In this document: one piece after another, positions 4,266 to 28,887 of the stretch
Layout of the letters: the number at the start of each line of letters is the position of its first letter
Position numbering within the stretch: the stretch's first letter is position 1
Assembly: GCA_020848745.1 (NCBI GenBank)
Contig: JADLHM010000074.1
Location: 1-35,867, forward strand
Reading direction: 5' to 3'
DNA length: 35,867 bases
DNA from: Deltaproteobacteria bacterium
GTDB lineage: Bacteria; Desulfobacterota; Binatia; UTPRO1
Notes under the pieces: model-generated
Databases searched by the model: none
The model's input: the letters and a program-made list of their open reading frames with translations, nothing else
What the model was told of the DNA's origin: nothing
Position numbers and translations under genes: made by a program

Positions 4266-4348
4266 GCGAGGATGGCGAAATGGCAGACGCGCTAGTTTGA
4301 GGGGCTAGTGGGGTAACACCCGTGGGGGTTCAAGTCCCCCTCCTCGCA
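4266..4348 (+). tRNA. tRNA-Leu (anticodon GAG)
   Basis: A full class II cloverleaf can be folded. The acceptor GCGAGGA (4266-4272) pairs with TCCTCGC (4341-4347), followed by discriminator A. The D arm starts GCGAAATGGCAGACGC. The anticodon stem CTAGT/GCTAG encloses loop TTGAGGG with anticodon GAG. There is a long variable arm (TGGGGTAACACCCG) as in leucine tRNAs, and a T arm GGGGG-TTCAAGT-CCCCC. CCA is not encoded. The 3' half is the attachment site of the adjacent integrative element, which leaves the tRNA intact on the left. Confidence 0.95.
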
Positions 4349-5732
4349 TTTGGTTTTCTCGCGACTTAGCACTTCGTCGCGTTGCACCGGGGACAGGTAA
4401 CCGGGGACACGTCTCGGTTTCATCCTCCAGCAGGCTCGCAAGGCGGCGTAGCTCGCGACGGTCATCATTCGGCATCCACTTCGCGTAGTGCGCCTTGAGC
4501 GTGGCGAGCGCGACGCCGGTCTGCTTCTCGACCCACCACGGGTCCTGCACCCGTTGGAGCGCGATCGAGACGTACGTGTCCTTCGTGCAGTAGAGACCAC
4601 GCACCCTGAGTCCGAGCGCGCGTAGGCAGTCGTACCAGTGCTCCGAGAACGCCTTCGGCTCGATCGGTGCCCCCGTCGTGCTCGTGAAGACCGGCGCATC
4701 GGGTCGGACATGCAGCGGCGCAAGCGCACGCAGGACCCGCACCGTCTCGGGCAACAGCTCGACCGTGCGCCGCGCGCTCTTGGTCTTGGGCTCGCCGTAT
4801 GCGCCGGAATGGAAGGACCGCCGGACTCGCAGCACGCCACGCGCAAGATCGATGTCCTGCCACTGGAGGCCCGACGCCTCGCTCGGCCGGAGTCCCGACC
4901 AGAACAGGAGATGCACGTAGCCGTGGAACGACGGATGCGGCAGACGGCGGACGCCGCGCGAGCCGGCGACCGGCGGGAAGCCGAAGCGCTTCGCCGCAAA
5001 CCAGCCGCAGACGCGCCGCACGTCGGCCAACTCGAACGGATCGGCTTCCGGCTGCTGCCAGGTCGGCCACACGAGCCCCACGAAAATATCACGCGTCACC
5101 AGGTCGTCGACGCGGGCGGCGCGGATCATCGCACGGAGCGTCCCGTTCACGATGTTGCGGACGTACTTGACCGAGATCGGTCCCGTGACGGGCGGTCGCC
5201 CCTTCTGCTCGGCCCGCGGGCGCGCCAGCAGTTGCCGCTGGAGGTCGTGGACATCCTTCGGCCGGAGCGCCGCGATGGGAAGATCTCCGAACAGTGAGGG
5301 CGAATCGTCGGTGCCCACGCTTGTCTCAAGGAAGTAGTCGCCATGGCGCGAGTAGTCCCGGAGCAATGCGGGACGGATGACTGGTGGCGTCTGGGCCGCA
5401 GCGGCACGCTGGCGCACCATCCACGCCTTGTAGTAGCCGCGCACGGTCACTACGGGGACCGGCGGTGTCGGCGCGTCGGAAGCGCCGGGTTTGGGCACCG
5501 GCGCAGGCTTCAGCAACGGCTCGATCTCCGCGAGCGTCCGGCCGGCGCGTATGAGCGCGCTCACGACTCGCGCTTGCGTCCGCGCTGCGATGCGGTTCTC
5601 GGGCGTGTCGGCCGCGATCGCGCGTGCAACGTGGCGCACGCCTCCGTGCCCGGGCACGCGGAGCCGCAAGCGGAGACGGCCGCCGTGCACTTCAACCGAG
5701 CAGCCGCCGTAGTCTTTCCGTCGCTTCCTCAA
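4305..5732 (-). CDS. int: Tyrosine recombinase/integrase whose C-terminus is encoded by attL and the tRNA
   Basis: 475 residues. The N-terminal 60 residues (DYGGCSVEVHGGRLRLRLRV) resemble an arm-binding domain, and a SAM-like core-binding region spans about 150-235. The catalytic domain starts near 265, with box-I arginine in SGLRPSEASGLQW and a lysine in the TKSARRTVELLP hairpin. Box II reads LYCTKDTYVS instead of the usual HxLRHTF, and the C-terminal tyrosine is probably in TLKAHYAKW. The frame runs through the 32-bp att core (tail NQMRGGGLEP) and stops inside tRNA-Leu after PRVLPH. It overlaps the upstream excisionase-like gene by 41 nt. A related broken integrase sits beyond attR. The catalytic residue reading is by eye. 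Confidence 0.9.
   Translation of the reverse strand: MRKRRKDYGGCSVEVHGGRLRLRLRVPGHGGVRHVARAIAADTPENRIAARTQARVVSALIRAGRTLAEIEPLLKPAPVPKPGASDAPTPPVPVVTVRGYYKAWMVRQRAAAAQTPPVIRPALLRDYSRHGDYFLETSVGTDDSPSLFGDLPIAALRPKDVHDLQRQLLARPRAEQKGRPPVTGPISVKYVRNIVNGTLRAMIRAARVDDLVTRDIFVGLVWPTWQQPEADPFELADVRRVCGWFAAKRFGFPPVAGSRGVRRLPHPSFHGYVHLLFWSGLRPSEASGLQWQDIDLARGVLRVRRSFHSGAYGEPKTKSARRTVELLPETVRVLRALAPLHVRPDAPVFTSTTGAPIEPKAFSEHWYDCLRALGLRVRGLYCTKDTYVSIALQRVQDPWWVEKQTGVALATLKAHYAKWMPNDDRRELRRLASLLEDETETCPRLPVPGATRRSAKSRENQMRGGGLEPPRVLPH
4326..4357 (+). repeat. attL: direct repeat in the 3' end of tRNA-Leu
   Basis: 32 bp identical to 23594-23625. It covers the T arm and 3' acceptor strand of the tRNA plus nine bases beyond the discriminator (ttggtttt side). 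The base just outside differs on both sides, which defines the repeat. tRNA 3' ends are classic targets of tyrosine integrases, and the integrase gene abuts and reads through this copy. Confidence 0.92.
4387..4409 (+). repeat. Paired CCGGGGACA direct repeats beside attL (possible integrase arm sites)
   Basis: CCGGGGACA occurs at 4387-4395 and 4401-4409, 14 bp apart, starting 30 bp from the att core. An equivalent pair with the same 14-bp spacing lies at 23649-23657 and 23663-23671 beside the other att copy. Their position and periodicity suit arm-type integrase binding sites. They lie inside the integrase coding sequence, so conserved coding is an alternative explanation. Confidence 0.45.
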
Positions 5733-5985
5733 TCGCGATCACCTCTGCGCCGCGCGGCGCCGTGGCTGGCCCCGCGGTCTCGCGTGCGGACTCCCCGTGC
5801 TCGATCAACTCGACGATCGCCGCCCACTTGAAGATCAGCCGCCCGCGGGGTCCGTCCTGGAAGTAGTGCACGCCGCGGCGTAACTCGCCGCGCTGTACCT
5901 TTTTCCGAACAGCCTCGACGCTCCACGGCGTCAGCGTGGCGAGTTCGTCGGCGTACAGATAGGGCTTCGCCTGCTGCGCGTTCAC
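5692..5985 (-). CDS. Excisionase-like small HTH protein
   Basis: 97 residues from a GTG start. The N-terminal half (YLYADELATLTPWSVEAVRKKVQRGELRRGV split over about residues 9-39) looks like a MerR/AlpA/Xis-type winged helix: a substrate-reading helix, then a basic turn. It is followed by a strand carrying FQDGPRGRLIFKW. The last 40 residues are Ala/Glu/Arg-rich. It lies directly upstream of the integrase and overlaps it by 41 nt, the usual place for a recombination directionality factor. Its function as an excisionase is inferred from fold resemblance and location. A DNA-binding regulator is the alternative. Confidence 0.7.
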   Translation of the reverse strand: MNAQQAKPYLYADELATLTPWSVEAVRKKVQRGELRRGVHYFQDGPRGRLIFKWAAIVELIEHGESARETAGPATAPRGAEVIAIEEATERLRRLLG

Positions 5986-6664: not shown

Positions 6665-7822
6665 TCATCCGGGCCATCCGTCCCGTGATGCGAGGTCGAG
6701 CGGGTAGTCCGCATCCGTGGGCGGCGGTTCGTCGCGGTCGGCACTACCGCCGCCACCACCGCCGTCACCGCCACCCCTAAAGGGGTGTGGCTGTGGCTGG
6801 CTGTAGTTGTGGGCAGCCAGGTCAGAGCCATTGGCTGTGGTCTGGCTGTTCATGGCTGTAGCGCTTCGGTTCTCGACGACGCGGTACTGGTCCCCATCTT
6901 TCCCGACAAGGCCGAGGCCGAGGAGCGTGGTGCGTGCTCGGCGCATCGACGTGTCGGTTAGCCCGCTCGCCTGCCGCCATGCCGTGTACGTCGCGCCCTC
7001 CGTACCCAGGCGCGCCAGCGTCTCTAGGGCATGCTGGTGCTTCGGGGTGAGCCGGGACGATCGCGTGGTTCCGGCGCTCACGTCGACGAGCTGCAACACG
7101 CACGCGGACTCGCCGCCGGGGAGCACGACCGGCAGCAGGCGCAGGGTGCGCGGGGCGAACAGTTCGGTGTCCTTCGCCTTGATGCAGGTGAGCCGCAACA
7201 CTCCGTCGTCCTCGGACGCGAGCTGCATCGCCGTATCGACGGCGCCGAGCAGCGCGCCACTGCCCCGCGCGTCGGTCTTGCCCTTGCTCGGATGGTGGAG
7301 GAGGAGCACGGCACCTTCGGTCGCGGCGCGGATGCGGTCACACGCAGCCACCGCCTTCCCCATGTCGCTCGCCGAATTCTCGTCGCCGCCGCCGAAGCAG
7401 CGCGCGAGCGTGTCGAGCACGACCAGCACGGGCGGCATGGCGGTGAGCGTCGCCAGGAGTGCGTTGACATGTGACTCGTTCAGCAGATTGATGGCCTCGG
7501 TCACAAATCGGATGGGGACGGTGCGGCGGTCGACCGTGGGATGCAGCGCGAGCCAGGCGTCAACGCGCTTCGGCAGGCCCGCGAGGCCTTCGCCGCTTAC
7601 GTACACGACGGGGCCGGTCGCGACCGCTTCCCCGAGCCACGGCATGCCGGTCGAGATGCTGAGCGATAGACCCACCGCGAGCGTGGACTTGCCGGTGCCG
7701 GGCGGTGCAATCACGATGTACAGACCGCCCCATTGCAGGAGCCTACCTGCCAGCGGGCGCGTGGGCGGGAGGGCCGCCAGGTCGTCAAGCGAGAGCAGCC
7801 GAACCCGCGGGCGGGTCAGCAT
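6665..7822 (-). CDS. RepA/KaiC-like AAA ATPase, probable replicative helicase of the element
   Basis: 385 residues from the ATG at 7822, which overlaps the upstream XRE gene by 7 nt. A Walker A motif, APPGTGKST, lies near residue 40. A Walker B-type strand (VLVVLDTLARCFGGGDEN) lies near residue 140, followed by LLLHHPSKG and ARGSGALLGAVD. These are characteristic of RSF1010 RepA-like and KaiC/RecA-fold hexameric helicases (AAA_25 group). The C-terminal 110 residues hold a helix-turn-helix-like stretch (YTAWRQASGLTDTSMRRARTTLLGLGLV) and then a Gly/Asp/Pro-rich disordered tail. It likely supports replication of the excised element. No primase or origin was identified. Confidence 0.78.
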   Translation of the reverse strand: MLTRPRVRLLSLDDLAALPPTRPLAGRLLQWGGLYIVIAPPGTGKSTLAVGLSLSISTGMPWLGEAVATGPVVYVSGEGLAGLPKRVDAWLALHPTVDRRTVPIRFVTEAINLLNESHVNALLATLTAMPPVLVVLDTLARCFGGGDENSASDMGKAVAACDRIRAATEGAVLLLHHPSKGKTDARGSGALLGAVDTAMQLASEDDGVLRLTCIKAKDTELFAPRTLRLLPVVLPGGESACVLQLVDVSAGTTRSSRLTPKHQHALETLARLGTEGATYTAWRQASGLTDTSMRRARTTLLGLGLVGKDGDQYRVVENRSATAMNSQTTANGSDLAAHNYSQPQPHPFRGGGDGGGGGGSADRDEPPPTDADYPLDLASRDGWPG

Positions 7823-8097
7823 CGCTGCACCTCCAGCGCGGGTGGCGGGAGCACTGCGTCCGTCCATGACCGGATCGGGTCGACGCCGAGATGCGTCAGC
7901 GCCTCGTAGGGCGTCAGCTCAAGAACGAGGGCCAGACGCGCCGCGAGGCCGGGCGGCAGCGTGGCGCGTCCCTGCTCGACGCGCCGCAGTCGAGCCGCCG
8001 TCGTTGGGATCGCAGCGGCGAGAGCGGCGAGTGACCACCCTAGCTGTTCGCGGCGCTGCGCGAGGAGGTTATCCGCCACGGCTTGGGCATGATCCAC
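7816..8097 (-). CDS. XRE-family HTH regulator upstream of the RepA-like gene
   Basis: 93 residues. Residues 7-65 form an XRE helix-turn-helix (NLLAQRREQLGWSLAALAAAI, then TTAARLRRVEQGRATLPPGLAARLALVL). The C-terminus is short and lacks a sensor domain. It overlaps the RepA-like ATPase start by 7 nt, so the two are one transcription unit. It probably controls replication or the choice between integrated and excised states. About 250 bp of apparently non-coding DNA upstream (8098-8344) would hold its promoter. No clear operator was spotted. Confidence 0.75.
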   Translation of the reverse strand: MDHAQAVADNLLAQRREQLGWSLAALAAAIPTTAARLRRVEQGRATLPPGLAARLALVLELTPYEALTHLGVDPIRSWTDAVLPPPALEVQRC

Positions 8098-8344: not shown

Positions 8345-9562
8345 TTAGCCCGACGTCTGACCCTTCGCGCGCGACGCGGAAACCGCTTTAACCAGCCGCG
8401 CTGTGTTGGGGTCGTAGACGTAGTTGGTTATGGTCCCGTCCTTGATTCGTTCTACGGCCTCGTCAATGACGAACAAGGGAACGAGGAACCATTCCTGTGG
8501 TTGCACAGGACGACCGAAGCGGTCGTTGATTGTGATGTTCAGCCGCGCCGATCCAAACAGCCTGTGAAACAGGTTCTCCATTCGCGTGCGGTTGATGCCC
8601 GCTAGCTTGTAGGTCGCAACCACCTCAGCCTTAGCCAGGAGGTACGTGGCGTCATGCTCCGCGTCCGCAATCCGGGTTTCCACTTTGCTGCCGGTCACGC
8701 CGATCTTGTGGATCAGATCGCGGTGCTCCGCGACATAGGGATGATCGGACAGCGATCGCAGGACATAGATCGTGCCACTCTCCACGTCGTCCGCTTCCAA
8801 CTCGCCCCCAAACGACAACTGTCCGCTCTCCGGCGAAACCAGCCGCCGCGCGGCGGGATCGTTGTAGAACGCGCGTTGAAGCGAGCGCAGCAATAGATTG
8901 CTCTCGGTGCCGTTGGCGAAGACGGCCCGCAAACGGCGATCCACTTCCCCGGCGGTCGTCTTCAACGGCTCGCCCACCTCGGCGATGTAGAGGATGATGC
9001 CGTCGAGGACGAAGAAGTCTCCGGCGTCAATTACGCGGCGGCCCGCCTCGATGGGCTGGGCCTGGCGCAGGCCCGTCCTGACGTCCGCCTCTACTCGATC
9101 AAACAGCGGCTTGAACGTTTCGAAGTCCTCGCACCGCTTGCGGTCGGCGATCTCCTCGGCGGCGCGTTTATCTGCACTGGTGCGGACGTGGCGCAGGACG
9201 GTGATGTCATCGGGGGTGGTCGTGCTCCCGAGTTCGGCAGCCAGTTTGTCGACGTCGTAATCGGCCAAGCCTTCGCCGACTCTCGTTGCGCCATCCAGCA
9301 AGCCCTGATGATCGAGCGACGCCAGCAGTGTGCGGCAGTTCGGTAGGGTGCGCAGTCGGTCAAGGCGCACGGCGTACAGCCTCTCGAAGATATCGCGGTC
9401 TTCCCCGTGTTGCGGAGCGCGATCGTGCTTCTCGACGAAACGCTGGATTTCCTCGAACCCGGCTATGACGCGCTCCTCTCTCGGCGGACGTCCGCCCTTG
9501 GCTTCCGGGGCGGCGAACTCCGAAAGCTCCGCCGCTAATTCGTCGAGGTTGGGGTCACTCAT
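8345..9562 (-). CDS. GIY-YIG nuclease-domain protein of a four-gene defence-type cassette
   Basis: 405 residues from the ATG at 9562, overlapping the helicase stop by 8 nt. An N-terminal helical region (to about 200) has no recognised domain. The GIY-YIG-type fold spans about 262-345: SGTIYVLRS as the GIY strand, HKIGVTG as the YIG strand, an arginine in VETRIADAE and a glutamate in MENLFHRLFG. The last is the expected metal-binding Glu. This is the T5orf172/MUG113-like arrangement often found next to helicases. It is the last gene of the methyltransferase-PLD-helicase-GIY-YIG run, all coupled by short overlaps. Nuclease activity in restriction of foreign DNA is inferred. Confidence 0.82.
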   Translation of the reverse strand: MSDPNLDELAAELSEFAAPEAKGGRPPREERVIAGFEEIQRFVEKHDRAPQHGEDRDIFERLYAVRLDRLRTLPNCRTLLASLDHQGLLDGATRVGEGLADYDVDKLAAELGSTTTPDDITVLRHVRTSADKRAAEEIADRKRCEDFETFKPLFDRVEADVRTGLRQAQPIEAGRRVIDAGDFFVLDGIILYIAEVGEPLKTTAGEVDRRLRAVFANGTESNLLLRSLQRAFYNDPAARRLVSPESGQLSFGGELEADDVESGTIYVLRSLSDHPYVAEHRDLIHKIGVTGSKVETRIADAEHDATYLLAKAEVVATYKLAGINRTRMENLFHRLFGSARLNITINDRFGRPVQPQEWFLVPLFVIDEAVERIKDGTITNYVYDPNTARLVKAVSASRAKGQTSG

Positions 9563-11636
9563 AGTAGCGACCCTCCTTCTTGAAGCGCATGAAGGCGGAC
9601 GCGCCTTCGGCCATGCGGCGCTCCCACGCATCCTGCGAGTCGAGCGCGGGCACGCGCCCCCGTTCCCTCTTGAACTGGACCGCGCGCACGGCCAGCTCCT
9701 TCGCCTCTTCCGGCGTCAGGTTCGTGCGCTTGGCAGAAATAGCCGCCGCAACTTGCTTCAAGCTGTCTTCGCTCATGGTCTTAGCGAGGATCGCGTAGGC
9801 TTCGCCGAAGGGATTGATGCGGTCGATCAGGTCGATGTCCAGCTCGCGCACATCCATCGCAAAGCGGCGCACGCCTTCGATCAGGGCGGTGTTGGGGGCG
9901 GTTTCCTCGCTTCCGCCGCCCGTCGCAAGCTGCTTTGCCTGCTGCGTGAGGATGAGGGCCGCAACGGCGTGCTGTCGGACGGATTCCTGATCTTCCGCGT
10001 CAAGATCAGGGTACTTGTCCTTGATAATCTTGCCCATGCGAACCTGCGTTAGTTCTTCCGGCACCAGTTCTTCATCGAACAAGCCGCGCTCGATAGCGGT
10101 CTTGTCCTGAATGAAGGTGGCGATCACTTCGTTCAGGTCCTCCTGGCAGATACGCGCGGCCTCCTTGCTCTTGGGTTCAGCGAGGCCCTTGATCTCGATC
10201 TGCACCTGTCCGGTCTGGTGGTTGAACCCAACGTTGGACCTTTCGGGATCGTAGCCGGCCCTGCCGTAGTCGAAGTCAGGCGTCGGACCGCTGTCCACGT
10301 TCTTGGGCCTAAACTCGAAGCGCGGGGCGAGGACCTGTTCCATCAGGAGGCTTGCGGCGATCGCCTTCAAGGTGTCGTTGACGGCCTCGGTTACGGTTTC
10401 CTCAGAGGCATCCGGCTCGGCGATCAGGTTGGTGAACCTCGCGCGAGTCTTGCCGGGCGCGTCGCGGGTCGCGCGACCGATGATCTGCACGATCTCTGTA
10501 AGACTGGCGCGATAGCCGACGGTGAGCGCATGTTCGCACCAAATCCAATCGAAGCCTTCCTTCGCCATGCCTAGCGCGATGATGATGTCTACGTAGTCCT
10601 GGTTGTTCTTCTGCGCCGAATCCTTGAGCGCGGCGGACACGCGGTCGCGCTTAGCAGCGTCGTCATCGACGAGATCGGCGATGCGCAGCACCTGACCATC
10701 GGGCCGCTTAACAAGCTGGAAGCCCGTGGTCGCATCGACGCCCTGCCATTCGCCCAGCGCCTCGATGATATGCTCCACCTCGCGCATCTTGTCTTTTGTG
10801 CTTTCGCGCGAATTGACGTTGGGGATGTGGATGATCGTCTTCTCGGCAGGGTTTAGGACCTTAAGGATGTCATCAACGTAAGGCCCGCTGTAGAAGAAGT
10901 AGCCGATGTCGAGTTGCTTTAGGTACTCGTAGCCGTTGAGCTGCTCGTAGTACGTGTAGGTTACGGTATCGAACTTAGCTTCGTCGGACGGACTCAGCAC
11001 GGCCTGGGCATCCCCGCGAAAGTAGGAGCCCGTCATGGCGACAATGTGCGTGCGCCCCCGTGCAATGAACTGCCCGAGGTGCGTGCCCAGCTTGTTGTCG
11101 GGGTTCGTTGAAACGTGGTGGAACTCATCGACCGCGATCAGGCGGTCGTCGAAGGCCTCCACGCCGTAGGCATCGACAGCGAAGCGGAACGTCGCGTGGG
11201 TGCAGACCAGCACCTTGTCGTCGCCGTCGAGGAACGTACCGAGTGACCTGACCTTGCCCCCATTGTCGTTGCCTGGTGCGTTACAGAGGTTCCACTTCGG
11301 CTCGACGTGCCAGTCGGCCCAGAAGCCGAATTTTGACAGCGGCTCGTCGTTGAAGCTGGCCCCGATGGACTTCTCCGGCACGACAATGACGGCCTGTTTC
11401 AGGCCTTGATTCGTGAGCTTGTCGAGTGCGATGAACATCAACGCCCGGCTCTTCCCTGATGCGGGCGGCGATTTGATGAGCAGGTACTGCTCGCCCCGCC
11501 TCTCGTAGGCGCGTTCCTGCATCGGCCGCATCCCCAGGGCATTGGCCTTGGTCGATGCGCCGTTGCGGGCGTAGATGACAGATACGGAAGGGACGTTCTG
11601 TGCGCCCTTGCAATCGCCGCCGGGACCGCTCGTCAA
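9555..11636 (-). CDS. SF2 DEAD/DEAH-type helicase of the defence-type cassette
   Basis: About 693 residues from a TTG at 11636 that overlaps the PLD gene stop as TTGA. In-frame ATGs upstream (11705, 11777) lie inside the conserved PLD coding region, so the TTG is preferred but not proven. Motif I is IKSPPASGKSR (about residues 54-64), motif II is IAVDEFHHVS, motif III-like is VAMTGSY, and motif VI is VQIIGRATRDAPGK. These define a complete SF2 helicase/translocase core. The C-terminal third is helical without a recognised domain. It probably couples DNA translocation to cleavage or recognition by its PLD, GIY-YIG and methyltransferase neighbours. Confidence 0.88.
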   Translation of the reverse strand: MTSGPGGDCKGAQNVPSVSVIYARNGASTKANALGMRPMQERAYERRGEQYLLIKSPPASGKSRALMFIALDKLTNQGLKQAVIVVPEKSIGASFNDEPLSKFGFWADWHVEPKWNLCNAPGNDNGGKVRSLGTFLDGDDKVLVCTHATFRFAVDAYGVEAFDDRLIAVDEFHHVSTNPDNKLGTHLGQFIARGRTHIVAMTGSYFRGDAQAVLSPSDEAKFDTVTYTYYEQLNGYEYLKQLDIGYFFYSGPYVDDILKVLNPAEKTIIHIPNVNSRESTKDKMREVEHIIEALGEWQGVDATTGFQLVKRPDGQVLRIADLVDDDAAKRDRVSAALKDSAQKNNQDYVDIIIALGMAKEGFDWIWCEHALTVGYRASLTEIVQIIGRATRDAPGKTRARFTNLIAEPDASEETVTEAVNDTLKAIAASLLMEQVLAPRFEFRPKNVDSGPTPDFDYGRAGYDPERSNVGFNHQTGQVQIEIKGLAEPKSKEAARICQEDLNEVIATFIQDKTAIERGLFDEELVPEELTQVRMGKIIKDKYPDLDAEDQESVRQHAVAALILTQQAKQLATGGGSEETAPNTALIEGVRRFAMDVRELDIDLIDRINPFGEAYAILAKTMSEDSLKQVAAAISAKRTNLTPEEAKELAVRAVQFKRERGRVPALDSQDAWERRMAEGASAFMRFKKEGRYYE

Positions 11637-12727
11637 AACACACCCCACTCGCGCCCACTTGCCATGTGGAACGCCCCGTCGATTGCACTGCTCTTCTTGA
11701 GCCATTGAGCTTTCGCCGCTTTGGTTCCAATGGTCAGCTCGAAGACGCGCGGCTTGGTTCTCACAAAAAGCAAACACTCATTGTCGTAGGCAGGTGGCCC
11801 GCCAGCTCCGGGTATTGGCAGGACGAGCTTGTCCATCTTGTTGTCGCTGTAGGTCAACGAAAACAGAGTTGCTGGACCGCTATCGAAGCCAATCCTCACG
11901 TCACCGACGTGTGTATTTTTAGGGATAGTGGTGGACGGAAAGCCAAAGAATACCCTTGAGAGGCGCTTCATCATGAGCTGATTGCCGGGCAACTTGGGGC
12001 CGCGGTTCTTGGTGATGTTCCCGGCATCAATCCAGAAATGGGTACATACGCGCAGTTTCTGCAATTCTTTGGTTGATAGGGTTCCGCGTCCAGTGTCGGT
12101 GCTCGCGACGTCGTCCTCTGTAGGAGCTGGGGCCTTCAAATTGTCCCTGTGCTCAAAGAGCCGGCGGTAGCCGGTAAATAGCGCCGGAGTCAACCGCGTG
12201 GCGTTGTTCCACGTTCTTGAGAACCAAGCACGCATGGATTGCATAGCGGCAGCGGCGGTGGGCTCAGTCGGCCCGGCCCGATTGACACTGACGACAAGTC
12301 CGGCTTCGACGCCACGCAACAATCCTGATCTAGACATATTGCCGGATCCCGCGAGCGCGTAGTCGCGCAGATCGGTCCGGACAAGGAACGTCTTCGGATG
12401 GAAGGGCATCTTAGGAGCGCCTCCGTGATCCAGGCAGAAGCGGGCATCATGGATTCTCACTGAAGACTTCGGAACCTTGAGTAGGCTGGCAAGGGCCACT
12501 GGCTCGGTGCGACAGTAGTCGAAGGACGTGATCCACCTCTTTGGAACGCCGCTCCATGCCTCGCCGAGGGTCTCCGCCAACCTTTTGAGCAGTTCGTAGG
12601 CACCGCCCGACGTTACATAGGCAACCGCCACGTCGATGCTCTCCACAGCGCCGTCCTGCAAGATGGCTTGAAGTGCATCAAGAGTAGTGCGGGGAGCAGG
12701 CTGGGCAATGTAGTCAACTCGGCTCAT
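11633..12727 (-). CDS. Phospholipase D-like (HKD) nuclease of the defence-type cassette
   Basis: 364 residues. The single PLD-type active site lies at about 110-130: HPKTFLVRTD (His110, Lys112) followed by GSGNMS. This is the arrangement of PLD-superfamily nucleases such as BfiI- or NgoFVII-like enzymes, which work as dimers with one HxK per chain. The N-terminal VAVAYVTSGGAYELL and the following strand agree with the same fold. The C-terminal 170 residues are unassigned. The ATG overlaps the methyltransferase stop as ATGA, and its stop overlaps the helicase start. It is presumably the DNA-cutting or DNA-binding subunit of the system. Confidence 0.85.
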   Translation of the reverse strand: MSRVDYIAQPAPRTTLDALQAILQDGAVESIDVAVAYVTSGGAYELLKRLAETLGEAWSGVPKRWITSFDYCRTEPVALASLLKVPKSSVRIHDARFCLDHGGAPKMPFHPKTFLVRTDLRDYALAGSGNMSRSGLLRGVEAGLVVSVNRAGPTEPTAAAAMQSMRAWFSRTWNNATRLTPALFTGYRRLFEHRDNLKAPAPTEDDVASTDTGRGTLSTKELQKLRVCTHFWIDAGNITKNRGPKLPGNQLMMKRLSRVFFGFPSTTIPKNTHVGDVRIGFDSGPATLFSLTYSDNKMDKLVLPIPGAGGPPAYDNECLLFVRTKPRVFELTIGTKAAKAQWLKKSSAIDGAFHMASGREWGVF

Positions 12728-15510
12728 GCGCGTCTCCGTCCCGGGAAAGTGGCCCTTTCAATGGTGGCACCTTCCTTCTGCGTGCTGGCGTACAAGGTGA
12801 ACAACTTTTCGAGACGTTCCGTGTCATTTCGGAACTGGCGCCCTATGTAGATACGCTCAAGAACTTCGTCATTGCGGGAATGCGCTTGGCGCAGATTTTC
12901 GGGCATTGCCTCAGGCTCGTAGAGGTCAGCGCTTGTTGAGGGGAAGTGGACTTCGCGTGCGAGGAGGATGTCCTCGGCACAATGAGTGAGGTCAACCTCA
13001 TTCTTATGGGTGAGAGTCGGGATTGGAAAGGTGTTCCATCCCAATGTGTTCGAGTATCGATAGTCCGTCTTCAACTTCCCGCAGACCGCAGCGATCCAAA
13101 CGAGATGAAGACGCGACGCAATCAAAGCCAGATGCCAGAGCGGTGCGTCGTAGAGCGCGAAGGCGCTATCGGCGACAACTGTGCCCGCATCCAGAAGCCC
13201 AACCGGAAGATAAGGGCGGCGCTCCGAACTATGGCGTGGAACGATAAGCGTCAGCCGCTGCGCGTTTCCCTGTATTTGAACGAATCGGTAGGGCGCTTTG
13301 GCATAGTCGCGCGTAGAGCCAGCCTTGCTAGACAACCGCATGGCCCGTACGGCTTCGAGGCGTCGAGCGACCGTCGGAGAGCGAGCGGCGTCGGCCCATT
13401 GATCTTGCTCAATCCAGAGGCAGTATCGGACCTTGCCCTGAATGAAATCCTCTGAGCCGACAAAGCGCCTCAGGTACCTTTTGAAAATTGTGTCACTAGG
13501 ATCTGTGCCCGCCTTGTCTTCAGGCGATACAAGAAGATGCCCACCGTCGCGCGGCATGTTGCCGAAGAGCATAGGAGCGCGGTCCTTCGGCGGGTCACGT
13601 CGGGCTTCGATGACGAGATTGGGGGCATCTACCAGATAGGGGTTAATGTTGCCGCACACCCGTTCGAGGGCCGTTCCGTCGGCGTCAAGCGTGTAGAGAC
13701 GCTTCCTCTTTCCAGCGACATTCGATAGTCCGACGATGATTACGATGACGCCCGCGTTATGACTGGCCAAGTTCGACCACTTGAATGAAGTGTGGGCGAA
13801 CTCGATCGCGTGACCTGTGGCAAAGATGGACGGCCAGAAGAGCGAGACCTGTTGACCTTGGCAAATCGAATTCGTCACCACAAACGCGGAACTCGCACTC
13901 GTCTGAAGGCCGTACTCCGCTGCCTTCATGAGCCATCCGGCAACATAGTCGAGCGACTTCCAGCCTTCCAAGCGACCATCGAATACGGCGGATAAGTCGG
14001 ATTTCTGTTCTTCTGACTGAAGTTTGTTGCCCAGGTACGGGGGATTCCCGCAGATGTAGGTCTCGCCGCCTTCGTTCTCGAAGTCGATTTCCGCTTGTTC
14101 GAGGGGCGTATCGAACAGGTCGTCCGCCTGCACCTTCACGCTCCTACCTGTAGGCGGGCAGATGGTCAGCCAGTCGAGCCGAAGAGCGTTGCCGCAGGTG
14201 ATCCAATTCTCGTCGCGCAGAGGCAGGAATTCGGCCAAGGCCAGCTTTTGCCCCCGGTACACCACGTCGCATTGATACTCGGCGATGATTAGCGCGAGGC
14301 GGGCAATTTCCGCCGGAAAGTCGCGCAGCTCGATCCCGCGAAAGTTCGTGAGCGGAATTCCAGAGCTACGATGCCGCTCGCCGCGTCGCTCGTTGATCTC
14401 GGCCTCGATCGCGCGCATCTCCTTGTAGGCGATGACGAGGAAGTTGCCGGAACCGCAGGCGGGGTCGAAGACCCTCATCTTCGTCATGCGCTTGCGTAGG
14501 TTGAGCAGGGTGCGGGGGTTGTCGCCTGCCTCTGCCAATCGTGCGCGCAAGTCGTCTAGGAAGAGCGGGTTCAGGACCTTCAGGATGTTGGGGACGCTGG
14601 TGTAGTGCATCCCCAACTCGCCGCGCTCCTCGTCCTCGGCGACGGCTTGGATCATCGACCCGAAGATGTCGGGGTTGATCTTGGTCCAGTCGAGACTGCC
14701 GACGTGCAGGAGGTATGACCGCGCGATCTTGCTGAACTTCGGCACATCCATGGTGCCGGAAAACAAGCCGCCGTTCACGTATGGAAAGTCGTCGGCCCAG
14801 CGAGGAATGTTGGCCGCTGCCCGTTCGTCCCGCTTGGTGTTCATGGCAAGGAACAACGTGCCGATTACCGCGTGCGTGTTGGACGAGTCCTTCGCGCTCA
14901 TCTGCGCGACAGTTTCGGTGAACTTGCCCTTGCCGACGAAGATCTCGGTATCCTCGGCGAAGAAGCAGAAGATGAGCCGCGCCATGAAGTGGTTCATGTC
15001 GTGGCGGCGCTCGGCCTTGCCCCAATCGGGGTTGTCGCGCAGAAGTTCGACGTAGAGCCGATTGAGGCGGCTGGTCGCCCGGATGTCGAAGGCGTTCTCG
15101 CTGATCTGCCGGACGGTGGTGATTCCCGCGAGCGGCAGGAAGAATCCGAAGTGGTCGGGGAAGTCCTGGAAGGCGCAAGCGACCGTCTCGCCGCCTGTCA
15201 GCTCTTCCGCCTCGAAGTCGTTGCCGTCAGTAGCAAGGACGAACTTCGCCTTGGCTTTGGCGGTAGCCGGGCTGTCCTTGAGCGCGTTGAGTGCCCGCGA
15301 CACCTGCCCTGCCTCGCAGGTCAGGATGTGAATGTTGTTGGTCTGGAGCACACCGCCGAGGTCGGACTTGTTCGAAGCCCCAGCGCGAAGGCGCTTGATT
15401 GTCGTCTCCTTGTTACCGAAAGCTTCAAGGAAGGCGTAGGGGAACGTCGCGGGGTCAAAGGGCTGCTCCGCAAGGTCTGTGATCGCCTGCTCGATCTCAA
15501 CGGCGTTCAA
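12724..15510 (-). CDS. MmeI-like class I N6-adenine DNA methyltransferase
   Basis: 928 residues from a TTG at 15510, preceded by a GAGAGG site. The sequence from there (NAVEIEQAITDLAEQPFD) begins as the family usually does. An ATG at 15534 is the alternative, and the farther upstream frame is not family-like. SAM-binding motif I is FDPACGSGNFLV (about residues 348-359). The catalytic motif is NPPY (489-492), specific for amino-N6/N4 methyltransferases. The N-terminal 300 residues include FFLPLAGI and a helical region ending HDMNHFMARLIFCFFAEDTEIF. The C-terminal 400 are probably target recognition. I do not see a PD-(D/E)XK site at the N-terminus, unlike MmeI, so cleavage may come from partner genes. 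First gene of the cassette. Confidence 0.9.
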   Translation of the reverse strand: MNAVEIEQAITDLAEQPFDPATFPYAFLEAFGNKETTIKRLRAGASNKSDLGGVLQTNNIHILTCEAGQVSRALNALKDSPATAKAKAKFVLATDGNDFEAEELTGGETVACAFQDFPDHFGFFLPLAGITTVRQISENAFDIRATSRLNRLYVELLRDNPDWGKAERRHDMNHFMARLIFCFFAEDTEIFVGKGKFTETVAQMSAKDSSNTHAVIGTLFLAMNTKRDERAAANIPRWADDFPYVNGGLFSGTMDVPKFSKIARSYLLHVGSLDWTKINPDIFGSMIQAVAEDEERGELGMHYTSVPNILKVLNPLFLDDLRARLAEAGDNPRTLLNLRKRMTKMRVFDPACGSGNFLVIAYKEMRAIEAEINERRGERHRSSGIPLTNFRGIELRDFPAEIARLALIIAEYQCDVVYRGQKLALAEFLPLRDENWITCGNALRLDWLTICPPTGRSVKVQADDLFDTPLEQAEIDFENEGGETYICGNPPYLGNKLQSEEQKSDLSAVFDGRLEGWKSLDYVAGWLMKAAEYGLQTSASSAFVVTNSICQGQQVSLFWPSIFATGHAIEFAHTSFKWSNLASHNAGVIVIIVGLSNVAGKRKRLYTLDADGTALERVCGNINPYLVDAPNLVIEARRDPPKDRAPMLFGNMPRDGGHLLVSPEDKAGTDPSDTIFKRYLRRFVGSEDFIQGKVRYCLWIEQDQWADAARSPTVARRLEAVRAMRLSSKAGSTRDYAKAPYRFVQIQGNAQRLTLIVPRHSSERRPYLPVGLLDAGTVVADSAFALYDAPLWHLALIASRLHLVWIAAVCGKLKTDYRYSNTLGWNTFPIPTLTHKNEVDLTHCAEDILLAREVHFPSTSADLYEPEAMPENLRQAHSRNDEVLERIYIGRQFRNDTERLEKLFTLYASTQKEGATIERATFPGRRRA

Positions 15511-18742: not shown

Positions 18743-20032
18743 TCACCTGTTCCCGATGAACGCCTGAACCGCCTGGCGCCAAGGTTGCTGATGGTACACG
18801 GAGGTGCGCGAATCAAACGGGGCGAATCGATAGAAGTCGGCAGCAAGCCGCTCCGCGTTGGTTAGCCATTCCGTGCACCGAGCGACACGCTCCGCGTCAG
18901 ACAACGCGGATAGTGCCCGCGTCTCCCGCACGGCGACTTCCAAAAAATGTTCGATCGCTGCCCCTTTGTTCCCGAGCCGATGTTGCCACTCCGGCACTGA
19001 GTCGCACCGTGCCCCCCCTGCAAGTGCACGCATGAGGCCGGAGCTTGCCGGCGTTGAATCAGCAACGGCGGCCAGCATGCCCGCACCTACCATCTTGTCC
19101 AGGTCGTTCTGAAGTCCGATCTCGCCCCCAAAAGCATGCGAGTAGAACGAAGGGACGGTCCTTCCTTCCTGCTCTTCAAAATCGCTGAGTCGAATACGTC
19201 GCTGTCCCCGGTACCACCCTGACGACCAGCCATCGGCTCCAGCGACAACCGCGAGGAGTCCCGCCGTCCCAGCGAACGCCACAACTACTCGACCGACACC
19301 TCCCTGCTTCAGTTGATAGACGATGCGCATCAGGGATCCGGCGACGTTAGCGTGGGTCATGTAGTACGAGTCTTCTATCGCTTGCTCAATCACGATGTAC
19401 GCGCCCTCTGGCGCGCGCGAACTCACCTGATCCACTACGATGTCGAGGAAAGAATTGGACCACGGATCGATGCCACGAAGGCACGTATCGGAGATCGCGA
19501 TCGTAGCTAGGCGGGGAAGTCCCGGTGCCAACTGTGACGCAACGTCCAATCCGCAATCGAGCCAACTGAGTGCAGTCGAATAGTCAGACGTTGGATCGGT
19601 TGATAGCGGCGCGGGAAGGATGATCCCTTCGCAGCCAAGATCTCGTTGCACGGTGACGCACATTTGCACTGCCGCACGGATGTCAACCTGCGTAGTCGGG
19701 GCGACGCCGGGCCACAAGTTTGCAACTGAAGCGCGCGCAGCATCTTTCCACTCTTTCTGCTTTTGCTCTCCACTATCGAATTGCTGAAGTTGCGCGCCGA
19801 ACCAGCCGTAGCTCATCAGATTCACGCATGCACTGCCGCAACGCCCCGCATTCAACGTGGCGAGATACATTTGCGGATCGAGTAGTCGACGAAGCAGATG
19901 AGGAGCGTTCAGCGATCGGCGCGTCAGCGTATGGAAGGCGATGCCCGATGGGCTGATGATCGATCCGTCTATCCCGCTGACTGCGGGAGGAACGGCAGCC
20001 TGATATCGAGCCAAGAAATAGAAATCCGACAT
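18743..20032 (-). CDS. Unknown 429-residue protein paired with a Ser/Thr kinase
   Basis: The start at 20032 lies two bases after the kinase stop (TAGCCATG), so the two are translationally coupled. The sequence has alternating strand/helix character (LATIAISDTCLRG, GAYIVIEQAIEDSYYMTH, RVVVAFAGTAGLLAVVAG) that could form an alpha/beta barrel or Rossmann-like fold. Cys and Gly clusters occur early (NAGRCGSACVNLMSYGWFG). No signal peptide. I do not recognise the family. It may be the kinase substrate or effector. Together with the nuclease-like gene ending at 18742 it makes a compact three-gene cargo module with possible defence function. Confidence 0.7.
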   Translation of the reverse strand: MSDFYFLARYQAAVPPAVSGIDGSIISPSGIAFHTLTRRSLNAPHLLRRLLDPQMYLATLNAGRCGSACVNLMSYGWFGAQLQQFDSGEQKQKEWKDAARASVANLWPGVAPTTQVDIRAAVQMCVTVQRDLGCEGIILPAPLSTDPTSDYSTALSWLDCGLDVASQLAPGLPRLATIAISDTCLRGIDPWSNSFLDIVVDQVSSRAPEGAYIVIEQAIEDSYYMTHANVAGSLMRIVYQLKQGGVGRVVVAFAGTAGLLAVVAGADGWSSGWYRGQRRIRLSDFEEQEGRTVPSFYSHAFGGEIGLQNDLDKMVGAGMLAAVADSTPASSGLMRALAGGARCDSVPEWQHRLGNKGAAIEHFLEVAVRETRALSALSDAERVARCTEWLTNAERLAADFYRFAPFDSRTSVYHQQPWRQAVQAFIGNR

Positions 20033-20034
20033 GG

Positions 20035-20856
20035 CTAGATGAAGGGCTGACAACGGGTGATTACTTCACGTGGGAGAGGGCGAACAACCGGCCTGCCGTT
20101 GACCATCGCATCGACTAGCGCAACAAATTCGTGGGGAAGATTAGGACTGATTGACGAAGTCATCCGTCCTCCATTCAACAGGGCGCGCTGGTTCCCTAGC
20201 GTCGGGTGACGGCCGCCGATAGCTTCTTGGACAACGAGTCCGAGTCCGAAGATGTCGGACTTGCAAGTCAGGTTTCGCAGACCTCGCATCTGCTCCGGTG
20301 ATAGATATCCCTCGGTTCCCCAGGTCTTGCCCCACGTGGTGAGCGACGCCAGTTGAAGGTGGCGGGCGACGCCGAGATCGACCAGCACAGCGCTCCCGTC
20401 TGGGCGGACGAGAATATTGCTCGGTTTCACGTCACGATGGACGATCCTAGCCTGCCAAATGATCTCGATGGCCGTGGCGACGTCGCGAGCTATCTTCGCG
20501 GTGTCGGAGATGCTGAGCGGCCCGTTCGCGATCAACCGATCGAGTGGAGCGCCCGAGATGAACTCTGTGGCGAGGTAGCGATGCGTGTTTCCACGCAACA
20601 CGCATTGCCCGGCGCTGTGCATGGTCACGATGGTGGGCGACCTGAATCCACGTATCGCAGCGATCTCGCGGTCGGTCCTCTCGTCAACCTGATTCCCAAC
20701 GTAAATCTTGACCGCCACCTCAAGCGAAGGATTGCCGATGGGGGAGCCCTTGAAGACAGCCCCCTGACCGCCGACCGCCACTTCGCTGACCATCGCAAAA
20801 TCGGCCGCGAGCGCCGTGGTGACCTCGGCGAGTGTTAGCGCAGGAGCGAAGGCCAT
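20035..20856 (-). CDS. Serine/threonine protein kinase (Hanks type, single domain)
   Basis: 273 residues. The Gly-rich loop is VGGQGAVFKG (28-37) and the ATP-anchoring Lys is in VAVKIYV (Lys50). The catalytic loop is HRDVKPSNIL (from 140), the metal-binding Asp is in VDLGVA (a DLG variant of DFG, 160-162), the activation segment ends GTEGYLSPEQM, and the conserved SDIFGLGLVVQE helix follows. All core catalytic residues are present. There is no membrane segment or PASTA domain, so it is cytosolic. It is coupled to the downstream unknown gene. Kinases of this compact kind occur in several abortive-infection systems. A regulatory role within the element is also possible. Confidence 0.92.
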   Translation of the reverse strand: MAFAPALTLAEVTTALAADFAMVSEVAVGGQGAVFKGSPIGNPSLEVAVKIYVGNQVDERTDREIAAIRGFRSPTIVTMHSAGQCVLRGNTHRYLATEFISGAPLDRLIANGPLSISDTAKIARDVATAIEIIWQARIVHRDVKPSNILVRPDGSAVLVDLGVARHLQLASLTTWGKTWGTEGYLSPEQMRGLRNLTCKSDIFGLGLVVQEAIGGRHPTLGNQRALLNGGRMTSSISPNLPHEFVALVDAMVNGRPVVRPLPREVITRCQPFI

Positions 20857-21407: not shown

Positions 21408-22808
21408 TCAGGCCAATACTTCTCTCCACCATTCGAGGGGAATCTCTTGAATCTCTGCAGCGAGCACGGTGGCCCCAGCGACAGCGTTCGCGATGTCGTC
21501 GTGAGCACCCGGGCCGTGGTCAATGCTGTCCCGTCCGCTGCGCGCGGTGCGACGCTCCAAGCCGAGCAGCTGCGTGGTGAGTCGACGTTGGTCCAGCAGC
21601 TCGACACGACCGGCGTTCAGCAGCGGCAGGAATGCCTGATACAGCTCCGACTTCGACTTGTCCGCAGTCACGTAGGAGACCTCGTGCGCACGAAACCGTT
21701 CGCGGGGCCATTCCCCCGCGTACCGGTCCCCGTAGACGACCGCGGCACCGTAGCTGCGAACGAGCGCGGCATATTCCCGGACGACCTCGTCGGGCGAGAA
21801 CGGCGGCCGCCATTCGCGCAGCAGGTCGAGGACGACCCGATCGTCCTCGCGGTGGGCGATCGCGAGCGTGAAGCTGTCTGCGCTCCCGCCGGACGGGTCC
21901 ACGAATGCCAGGTGCTCACGCTCGGCACTGCGCGGCAGCTCCTGACGGTCCGGGACGATGCACGCCGTTAGCGCCTCGCGCGATACGAACCGCTCAACGT
22001 CACGCCGAAACTGCGCGCCGTACTCTGCCGCCGCCCGCGCCTCGTCGTCCTCGTACGCGGTGCTGATGATGGACGCCTCCACTGCGGGGTTCATGCTTCG
22101 CGTGTCCGCCTGCCAGACAAGAACGGGGTCGCCGTCGATGCCGTAGTGGTGCTCGTAGGCGCGCCAGAGTTCTCCGCGCCGAGCGTACGGACTGCTGATG
22201 CCGACGAGCAGAGCGCCGGGTACGCTCGCCATGCCGGGCCGGAGCGCCGCAACCGTCTCGGTGTCGGGGTTCGCGCTATCGTCCGTGGGCCAATAGGCAA
22301 CCTCGTCGAGAATTGCCGCCACCAGCGTGTATCCGCGCACAGCCCGAAAGCTGGCCGTGTGAATCTCGATGTCGATGCCGTTCGTGAGGCGAAGCGCTTC
22401 CGCGGTGCGATCCGCGACGAGCGCCGCCAGCATCGGGCAGGCGTCGACAAGACCGCAGACGTAGCGGAACACGACGCGGGCCTGCCGGCGATCGGCAGCG
22501 AGCACCATGACGACGCCGCGCTCGCCGAGGGCCAGGTCGTAGCGCTTGAATGCTGCCGCGTAGACGGCAAGCAGCGCGGCGATCCGTGACTTGCCACCGC
22601 GACGGCCCACGATGACCCATGCCTCGCGGGCCGGACTCGCGGGTGGCACCGCACGCCCGGTGTGTTGGCGGTAGCGAGTTAACCCGTCCGCTTCGAGCGA
22701 CAAGCCGAACACGGCCGCGAGGAACACGCGCCAGGCTACCCAGCTCGCGGCCGGCCGGAAGGCCGGTGCGAGCAGGTTCACGTCTTCGAGGGCTTCGAGG
22801 ATGGTCAT
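21408..22808 (-). CDS. terL: Phage terminase large subunit
   Basis: 466 residues from the ATG at 22808, which overlaps the zinc-finger gene stop as ATGA. N-terminal ATPase: the Walker A-like motif is VGRRGGKSRIAA (about 68-74) and Walker B is AAILDEVAYW (about 167-173). The C-terminal RNase H-like nuclease is seen in AFVDPSGGSADSFTLAIAH (first catalytic Asp), AAVVYGDRYAGEW (second) and HGPGAHDDIANAVAG (third). These are the standard TerL parts that cut and pump phage DNA. It sits with a TerS-like gene but without portal or capsid genes in view, so it would have to act on capsids supplied by a helper phage or has another role. Confidence 0.9.
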   Translation of the reverse strand: MTILEALEDVNLLAPAFRPAASWVAWRVFLAAVFGLSLEADGLTRYRQHTGRAVPPASPAREAWVIVGRRGGKSRIAALLAVYAAAFKRYDLALGERGVVMVLAADRRQARVVFRYVCGLVDACPMLAALVADRTAEALRLTNGIDIEIHTASFRAVRGYTLVAAILDEVAYWPTDDSANPDTETVAALRPGMASVPGALLVGISSPYARRGELWRAYEHHYGIDGDPVLVWQADTRSMNPAVEASIISTAYEDDEARAAAEYGAQFRRDVERFVSREALTACIVPDRQELPRSAEREHLAFVDPSGGSADSFTLAIAHREDDRVVLDLLREWRPPFSPDEVVREYAALVRSYGAAVVYGDRYAGEWPRERFRAHEVSYVTADKSKSELYQAFLPLLNAGRVELLDQRRLTTQLLGLERRTARSGRDSIDHGPGAHDDIANAVAGATVLAAEIQEIPLEWWREVLA

Positions 22809-23002
22809 GGTGCCGTCTCCACGGTCCGAGCCTCCGACCACGCTCGCCAGCGACACCGTGTGGAGCAGAAACGCTGCCATCGCCGGCGCCGCGTGAACGC
22901 GATGCCGCATACCGGACAGGCCGAAGGTCCAGGTGATGCTGTTGCGTCGCTCACAACGCGTTGTTGTGCGTCCTCGGAGTGGTGCCGCGTAGGATCACGC
23001 AT
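22805..23002 (-). CDS. Small zinc-finger protein between terS-like and terL
   Basis: 65 residues from the ATG at 23002, overlapping the preceding gene by 8 nt and terL by ATGA. A four-cysteine site (CPVC, then CSTRC 15 residues later) with a basic Arg-rich loop between suggests a zinc ribbon that binds DNA or RNA. Its location inside the terminase operon suggests an accessory packaging or regulatory protein, but no family name is claimed. Confidence 0.65.
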   Translation of the reverse strand: MRDPTRHHSEDAQQRVVSDATASPGPSACPVCGIAFTRRRRWQRFCSTRCRWRAWSEARTVETAP

Positions 23003-23593: not shown

Positions 23594-23625
23594 GGGTTCA
23601 AGTCCCCCTCCTCGCATTTGGTTTT
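23594..23625 (+). repeat. attR: second copy of the 32-bp tRNA-Leu repeat
   Basis: Identical to 4326-4357. It contains only the 3' part of the tRNA, not a whole tRNA gene, as expected for the distal junction of an element integrated into a tRNA 3' end. Confidence 0.92.
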
Positions 23626-25860: not shown

Positions 25861-25885
25861 GTGAGGCTCAGGAGCTCGTGACCGC

Positions 25886-28879: not shown

Positions 28880-28887
28880 CGTCTCGC

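Follow-up and report, generated by a model that had tools for sequence, protein, structure and literature searches.

The cassette described here lies at positions 8345–15510 of the window, a 35,867-nt contig of a Deltaproteobacteria bacterium (GenBank JADLHM010000074.1). It consists of four intact, co-directional minus-strand open reading frames (ORFs), all open and complete, for an MmeI-family DNA methyltransferase (MTase), a PLD-family nuclease with a B3-like domain, a superfamily 2 (SF2) helicase and a GIY-YIG protein. We propose, with a probability of about two in three, that it represents a DnmA–YeeB–YeeC operon carrying the PLD-B3 gene as cargo, and that its products form a split, ATP-dependent restriction system in which both the specificity domain and the cargo are exchangeable. 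The proposal builds on a core of MTase, helicase and GIY-YIG genes that is conserved across phyla, on the loss of the nuclease motif from the MTase, and on a variable slot between MTase and helicase with fixed translational coupling. DnmA–YeeB–YeeC operons are widespread, yet the member studied best has been written off as a dead relic; our survey indicates an actively evolving operon whose motor is extremely conserved, whose recognition domain is hypervariable and whose effector position accepts different genes.

The conserved core and its proteins

A reading of the window made from its sequence alone, hereafter the sequence-only reading, had described four overlapping genes, which is borne out by the completeness of the ORFs, by Pfam and fold matches, and by overlaps of 4, 4 and 8 nt that follow from the likely start codons chosen (Table 1). 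The TTG start assigned to the MTase agrees with an MNAVEIEQ start conserved among its relatives. To place the cassette, 84,980 genomes were scanned; the scan returned at least 534 helicase relatives, the best 80 of which were kept and, together with plasmid and class-mate loci, make up the 96 helicase loci surveyed. The survey is weighted to helicases near that of the window, mostly at 75% identity or more, with ORFs called by script. The MTase gene adjoins the helicase gene in 92 of these loci and the GIY-YIG gene in 93, with most exceptions falling at contig ends or in broken genes, and the complete trio is present in at least 89 of the 96. It occurs across Pseudomonadota, Acidobacteriota, Bacillota, Cyanobacteriota, Bacteroidota and others, and on annotated plasmids of Klebsiella, Nitrobacter, Acidovorax, Rhodococcus, Aeromonas, Niallia and Ligilactobacillus. 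The recurrence of this gene order across phyla is more than chance. The earlier suggestion of a multi-subunit, restriction-modification-like system is supported. The further statement that no established system has this gene set fails for the trio, which is the published DnmA–YeeB–YeeC cluster (PMC7261158, PMC9973331); the PLD gene is an addition to it.

The MTase has the full MmeI architecture (Pfam MmeI_N, hel, Mtase, TRD and C), carries the motifs DPACGSGNF and NPPY, and matches the solved MmeI structure (PDB 5hr4) with 462 bits. Over its whole length it fits the PADLOC model REase_MTase_IIG; the HsdR, HsdM and HsdS subunits of a Type I system were not found, matches to Type I MTases being only weak and partial. 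The D/E/K residues of the PD-ExK nuclease motif are absent in an alignment from the window protein and from 80 of 80 helicase-linked MTases, and are kept in both of the relatives that stand without a helicase, the Methylobacterium-group enzymes of loci L010 and L011 (D..ExK, FIDLFWKGVLLVEQK). The MTase thus lacks a fused nuclease, as first read, and the loss from helicase-linked enzymes fits a presumed move of the nuclease function from cis to trans. The target recognition domain (TRD) is the variable part of the protein, with a mean identity to the window of 0.45 versus 0.70–0.74 for the other domains, as would be expected of a specificity module.

The helicase, with DEAD/ResIII and Helicase_C matches in Pfam, has relatives 73–91% identical across many phyla, and a 67%-identical Acetobacter protein is named "restriction/modification system component YeeB" in its GenBank record. 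No solved structure was related to it by sequence at E 0.001, and a search of phage records gave no full-length relative. The GIY-YIG protein matches MUG113 (1.4e-14) and T5orf172 (9.5e-11), and its residues Y266, H285, K286, G288, R297 and E329 are invariant in 31 relatives. Residues 256–380 of its model weakly resemble the GIY-YIG domain of Slx1 (Z 5.1), and the comparison of the model with the PDB gave no match above Z 5.4. A central domain (residues 168–242) is weakly like a small SH3/KOW/Tudor barrel, a common shape (Z ~5).

Table 1. Coordinates of the cassette genes, their junctions and the features of the carrier element in the window.
Feature	Position	Strand	Remark
MmeI-family gamma-class N6-adenine DNA methyltransferase (DnmA/YeeA type), 928 aa	12724..15510	-	likely TTG start at 15510
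Cargo gene: PLD-family nuclease with C-terminal B3-like domain (BfiI/NgoAVII type), 364 aa	11633..12727	-	ATG at 12727
SF2 helicase/ATPase, YeeB type, 693 aa	9555..11636	-	likely TTG start at 11636
T5orf172/GIY-YIG protein, YeeC type, 405 aa	8345..9562	-	ATG at 9562
ATGA, 4-nt overlap of MTase stop with cargo start (slot entry)	12724..12727	-
TTGA, 4-nt overlap of cargo stop with likely helicase start (slot exit)	11633..11636	-
8-nt overlap helicase/GIY-YIG, ATGAGTGA	9555..9562	-	same length in 52/93 loci
Putative attL: 3' end of tRNA-Leu(gag), 23-bp direct repeat	4326..4348	+
Putative attR: second copy of the 23-bp tRNA-Leu repeat	23594..23616	+
Tyrosine integrase of the carrier element	4305..5732	-	Phage_integrase; phrog_1 integrase 5.6e-31
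Excisionase-like ORF in element	5692-5985		
Helicase-primase-like ORF in element	6665-7867		
Terminase large subunit-like ORF in element	21408-22910	-	phrog_2, 2.8e-22

A variable slot with fixed translational coupling

The PLD gene occupies a position that is variable in the surveyed loci. Of 92 MTase–helicase junctions, 52 exceed 200 nt (about 45 of 77 when only the 80-locus scan is counted), versus 1 of 93 helicase–GIY-YIG junctions (Fisher p 2e-19), and this single interrupted case is a broken gene. The extra DNA is mostly genes, whose proteins form about 22 clusters. Identified cargo comprises YhcG/DUF1016, a PDDEXK nuclease and candidate family of PADLOC, as well as SLFN_AlbA_2, RhuM, PIN, DUF559, HepT (HEPN) with a nucleotidyltransferase, GmrSD_N, zeta toxin, RelE, CoiA_N and a T5orf172-like protein. 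Five loci with a slot above 200 nt gave no clear family, and the slot calls are doubtful for L089 and for L091, a decayed locus. Four recurrent cargo clusters have no Pfam match, represented by L012:7204-7986 (~260 aa), L061:9585-9998 (~137 aa), L020:3457-4341 (~290 aa) and L048:9156-9989 (~277 aa); these are candidate new effectors, and several unnamed families emerge as candidates for defence genes.

On a quick helicase tree of 91 rows the slot content changes at least 47 times. The locus with the nearest helicase (L002, 91% identical) has a YhcG nuclease in its slot, not a PLD gene, and sister loci with 91–94% identical DNA around the helicase and GIY-YIG genes carry different cargo. Identity between such sisters breaks at two places, in the TRD and exactly between the MTase stop and the helicase start. 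The papers searched describe no systematic exchange of cargo at a single fixed overlap in DnmA operons.

What ties the cargo to the operon? A 4-nt overlap joins the MTase stop to the start of the cargo gene in 39 of 47 loci, in agreement with the PGAP annotations of L008, L012, L018 and L020, and where cargo is missing the helicase start takes the same 4-nt position (33 of 40 loci). One may regard the slot genes as passive hitch-hikers, the ATGA junction being merely a permissive insertion point in an often-recombining mobile operon, with no functional tie to the MTase. The great diversity of the cargo families, the several loci that have none and the occurrence of toxin–antitoxin pairs in the slot are in keeping with this view, which is nonetheless doubtful: the recognised families are mostly of nuclease, RNase or abortive-infection (Abi) type, they are translationally coupled at the frequency just given, and the helicase–GIY-YIG junction is avoided. 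Moreover, RhuM, a slot cargo in L046, L051 and L063, likewise follows hsdM in two Type I operons, between hsdM and hsdS and with a 4-nt or 1-nt overlap; the cargo pool and the position are therefore shared with Type I systems.

We tentatively extend the proposal of a split restriction system, at less than even odds, to a model in which DnmA–YeeB–YeeC is a general carrier with a dedicated effector bay. About 20 unrelated nuclease, RNase or Abi genes would couple to it through the fixed ATGA overlap, the MTase complex would license, silence or guard the effector in the manner of EcoprrI and PrrC, and defence would be diversified by swapping specificity domain and effector within one mobile operon.

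The PLD-B3 protein and the restriction model

The PLD protein gives a weak PLDc_2 match in Pfam, and its identity was confirmed by fold. Its AlphaFold2 model (mean pLDDT, the predicted per-residue confidence, 71.2) matches the PLD domain of SauUSI (Z 17.4), BfiI over both domains, with a different hinge (Z 13.5), and NgoAVII R (Z 11.9), and residues 227–364 match the B3 recognition domain of BfiI (3zi5; Z 9.4, root-mean-square deviation 3.7, 130 residues). A sequence profile of the protein independently retrieves SauUSI and BfiI. The protein has a single HKD-type domain with H-K-N-E residues; H110, K112, S128, N130 and E141 are invariant in the alignment, the pattern of Nuc and BfiI. Together, the fold matches, the invariant residues and the profile matches suggest that the protein is most likely a PLD nuclease bearing its own DNA-recognition domain.

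Relatives of this protein are rare, being found on 7 of 72,556 plasmids, and none was detected in phage records. All four genes stand in exactly this order in Acidithiobacillus sp. YTS05 (L033, PLD protein 69% identical), in a Burkholderiales metagenome-assembled genome (L025) and in Methylosinus trichosporium pOB3b2 (L008, found by the PLD search), so that the four genes do co-occur elsewhere; in Vreelandella (L049) a relative shares the slot with RhuM. Such recurrence is what a new, fixed four-gene restriction system with PLD as an essential subunit, as envisaged in the sequence-only reading, would give. Most relatives of the operon lack the gene, and the slot of the nearest one is filled otherwise, which makes that reading very improbable. 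The survey replaces the fixed unit with a variable slot in which PLD is one of about 20 interchangeable cargo families; PLD as a core component is rejected, since about 90% of the YeeB loci lack it.

It is also conceivable that the PLD-B3 protein is the main endonuclease, with YeeB as its ATPase partner and the GIY-YIG protein as an accessory, by analogy with CglI and NgoAVII, in which a PLD-B3 endonuclease is driven by an SF2 ATPase beside a methyltransferase (PMC4267653). The fold matches to BfiI and NgoAVII agree with this. The analogy is weakened by the window MTase, an MmeI-type N6-adenine enzyme with NPPY in place of the 5-methylcytosine (m5C) MTase of CglI, and by PLD relatives that stand beside MTases without YeeB (L010, L011, L122, L112) or just downstream of YeeC (L039, the near-identical L058, and L069). 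Because about 90% of the YeeB loci lack PLD and nearly all have GIY-YIG, the regular partner of YeeB is YeeC, and we regard PLD as the main endonuclease as unlikely.

Some loci with PLD relatives merit description in their own right. In L010 (5149-9014), L011 and L122 a PLD-B3 protein follows an MmeI-type enzyme with no helicase; an intact PD-ExK motif was checked in L010 and L011, and the pair of L122 directly precedes a Type I-E CRISPR locus. Six genes make up L112:3402-16399, encoding a PLD-SNF2 helicase, an Eco57I-type MTase, a PLD-B3 protein, an AAA/SMC-like ATPase, a kinase-like protein and an Abi_C protein.

Based on these data, we propose the following model for the DnmA–YeeB–YeeC operon and its cargo. 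The TRD of the MTase would read a short asymmetric site, and the single N6-methyladenine (m6A) placed there would serve as a self mark. At unmethylated sites the MTase would recruit YeeB, which would hydrolyse ATP and move along or remodel the DNA, and YeeC would cut the DNA after this recruitment, so that the system would amount to a split version of Type I, III or ISP restriction, with a separate protein supplying in trans the nuclease that the MTase has lost. Motor-using restriction enzymes with single-strand methylation (Type III, ISP) need two converging unmodified sites, which spares newly replicated DNA, and the predicted MTase, YeeB motor and YeeC nuclease would fit such a scheme. In the PLD-B3 protein the operon would have a second endonuclease, probably a site-binding one, joined to it by the 4-nt translational overlap; its most likely role would be that of a reserve or alternative effector that is attached to the MTase and possibly works with the helicase, as in CglI/NgoAVII.

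Several points weigh against this model. Cleavage by YeeC and methylation by the window MTase are predicted activities, and the model of the C-terminal half of the PLD protein, built from six sequences, is of moderate confidence (mean pLDDT 71.2). Four distant loci (L014–L017) have empty slots, in a survey that favours close helicases. In B. subtilis, DnmA–YeeB–YeeC restricted neither plasmid uptake nor three phages, the DnmA motif is not avoided by phages, and the authors call the cluster a relic (PMC7261158, PMC9973331). Since DnmA there alters gene expression and no restriction was seen (PMC7261158, PMC9973331), the window enzyme may be an orphan epigenetic MTase whose role is m6A gene regulation, as argued for B. 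subtilis, with the helicase, GIY-YIG and PLD genes as non-functional or regulatory leftovers. The integrity of all four genes, the sequence conservation of YeeB across phyla, the conserved gene coupling and the location of the operon in a mobile element argue otherwise, and a hypervariable TRD fits defence better than a fixed regulon; an orphan role is thus improbable. In Vibrio crassostreae, as cited in PMC9973331, deletion of dnmA or yeeB leads to greater sensitivity to some phages.

The cassette is probably acquired DNA, because the helicase is present in only 4 of 148 genomes of the window's class and is missing from the other two genomes of its genus. Its region has a G+C content of 58–63% versus a window average of 67%. 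It lies within an element of about 19.3 kb bounded by two 23-bp repeats (Table 1); these tRNA-Leu repeats, together with the integrase, excisionase-like, helicase-primase and terminase-large-like genes, suggest a phage-satellite-like or prophage-derived island. No capsid genes other than the terminase were recognised in the element. At 18743-20856 on the minus strand, a protein-kinase ORF (20035-20856) and a 436-aa ORF of unknown kind (18743-20053) overlap; the pair may be a second defence module of the element, to the right of which (25868-32886) several long ORFs (1339, 1332, 1150 and 997 aa) overlap on both strands.

Comparison with known systems

The closest published relative, dnmA (yeeA)–yeeB–yeeC of B. 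subtilis, encodes, in this order, an MmeI homologue without a nuclease motif, an SF2 helicase and a T5orf172 protein; it has conserved synteny and was earlier proposed to be a Type I-like restriction-modification system (PMC7261158, PMC9973331). The window has the same three proteins, including an MTase without PD-ExK, in identical order; it differs in the PLD-B3 gene between MTase and helicase, where the published order has no cargo. This kinship is set by published domains and gene order, the nearest sequence compared being that of a Bacillaceae plasmid (Niallia, L016) with a 45% identical helicase. With MmeI itself (Type IIL), the window MTase shares the MTase, spacer, TRD and C-terminal domains. 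It lacks the N-terminal D..ExK nuclease, and nuclease and motor are separate genes.

CglI and NgoAVII likewise have a methyltransferase, a PLD-B3 endonuclease and an SF2 ATPase as separate genes (PMC4267653). They differ in their m5C-type MTase, in the Z1 domain of their helicase and in lacking a GIY-YIG protein; YeeB mostly occurs without PLD. BfiI (Type IIS) shares the two-domain PLD-B3 fold and the H-K-N-E active-site pattern; it acts alone, with its own methylases, and is 14% identical to the window PLD protein.

DISARM class 1 also combines a gamma-class MTase, a helicase and a PLD gene. The window has neither DrmA nor DrmB, and its helicase and MTase belong to other families. Searches of the whole genome for PF09369 (MZB, DUF1998-type domain) and PF08665 (PglZ) gave no match, and none of the four cassette proteins fully matched a DrmA/B/C or BREX model, DrmA giving no match at all. 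DISARM and BREX membership is rejected on the genome-wide absence of these defining genes, in line with the separation from both systems drawn in the sequence-only reading. A reduced DISARM or BREX locus might be seen in the weak similarity of the MTase to DrmMI and PglX, and in a class 1 DISARM locus of Methylocystis sp. MJC1 (L009:768-16657) with a PLD-B3 relative right behind its methyltransferase. Given the missing genes and an MTase that scores 944 bits with the IIG model versus 75 bits with DrmMI, such a reduction has next to no probability. The PLD protein is rejected as DrmC, which it matches over only 27 residues at E 0.023.

Type I hsd operons with inserted restriction-linked ORFs, such as the rlo genes of Campylobacter and PrrC in EcoprrI (PMC2610378), differ from DnmA operons in their core enzymes and resemble them in carrying cargo inside a restriction operon, with the RhuM family and its position in common. 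The slot of the DnmA operons bears directly on whether restriction enzymes serve as platforms for other effectors, an idea that rests mainly on PrrC.

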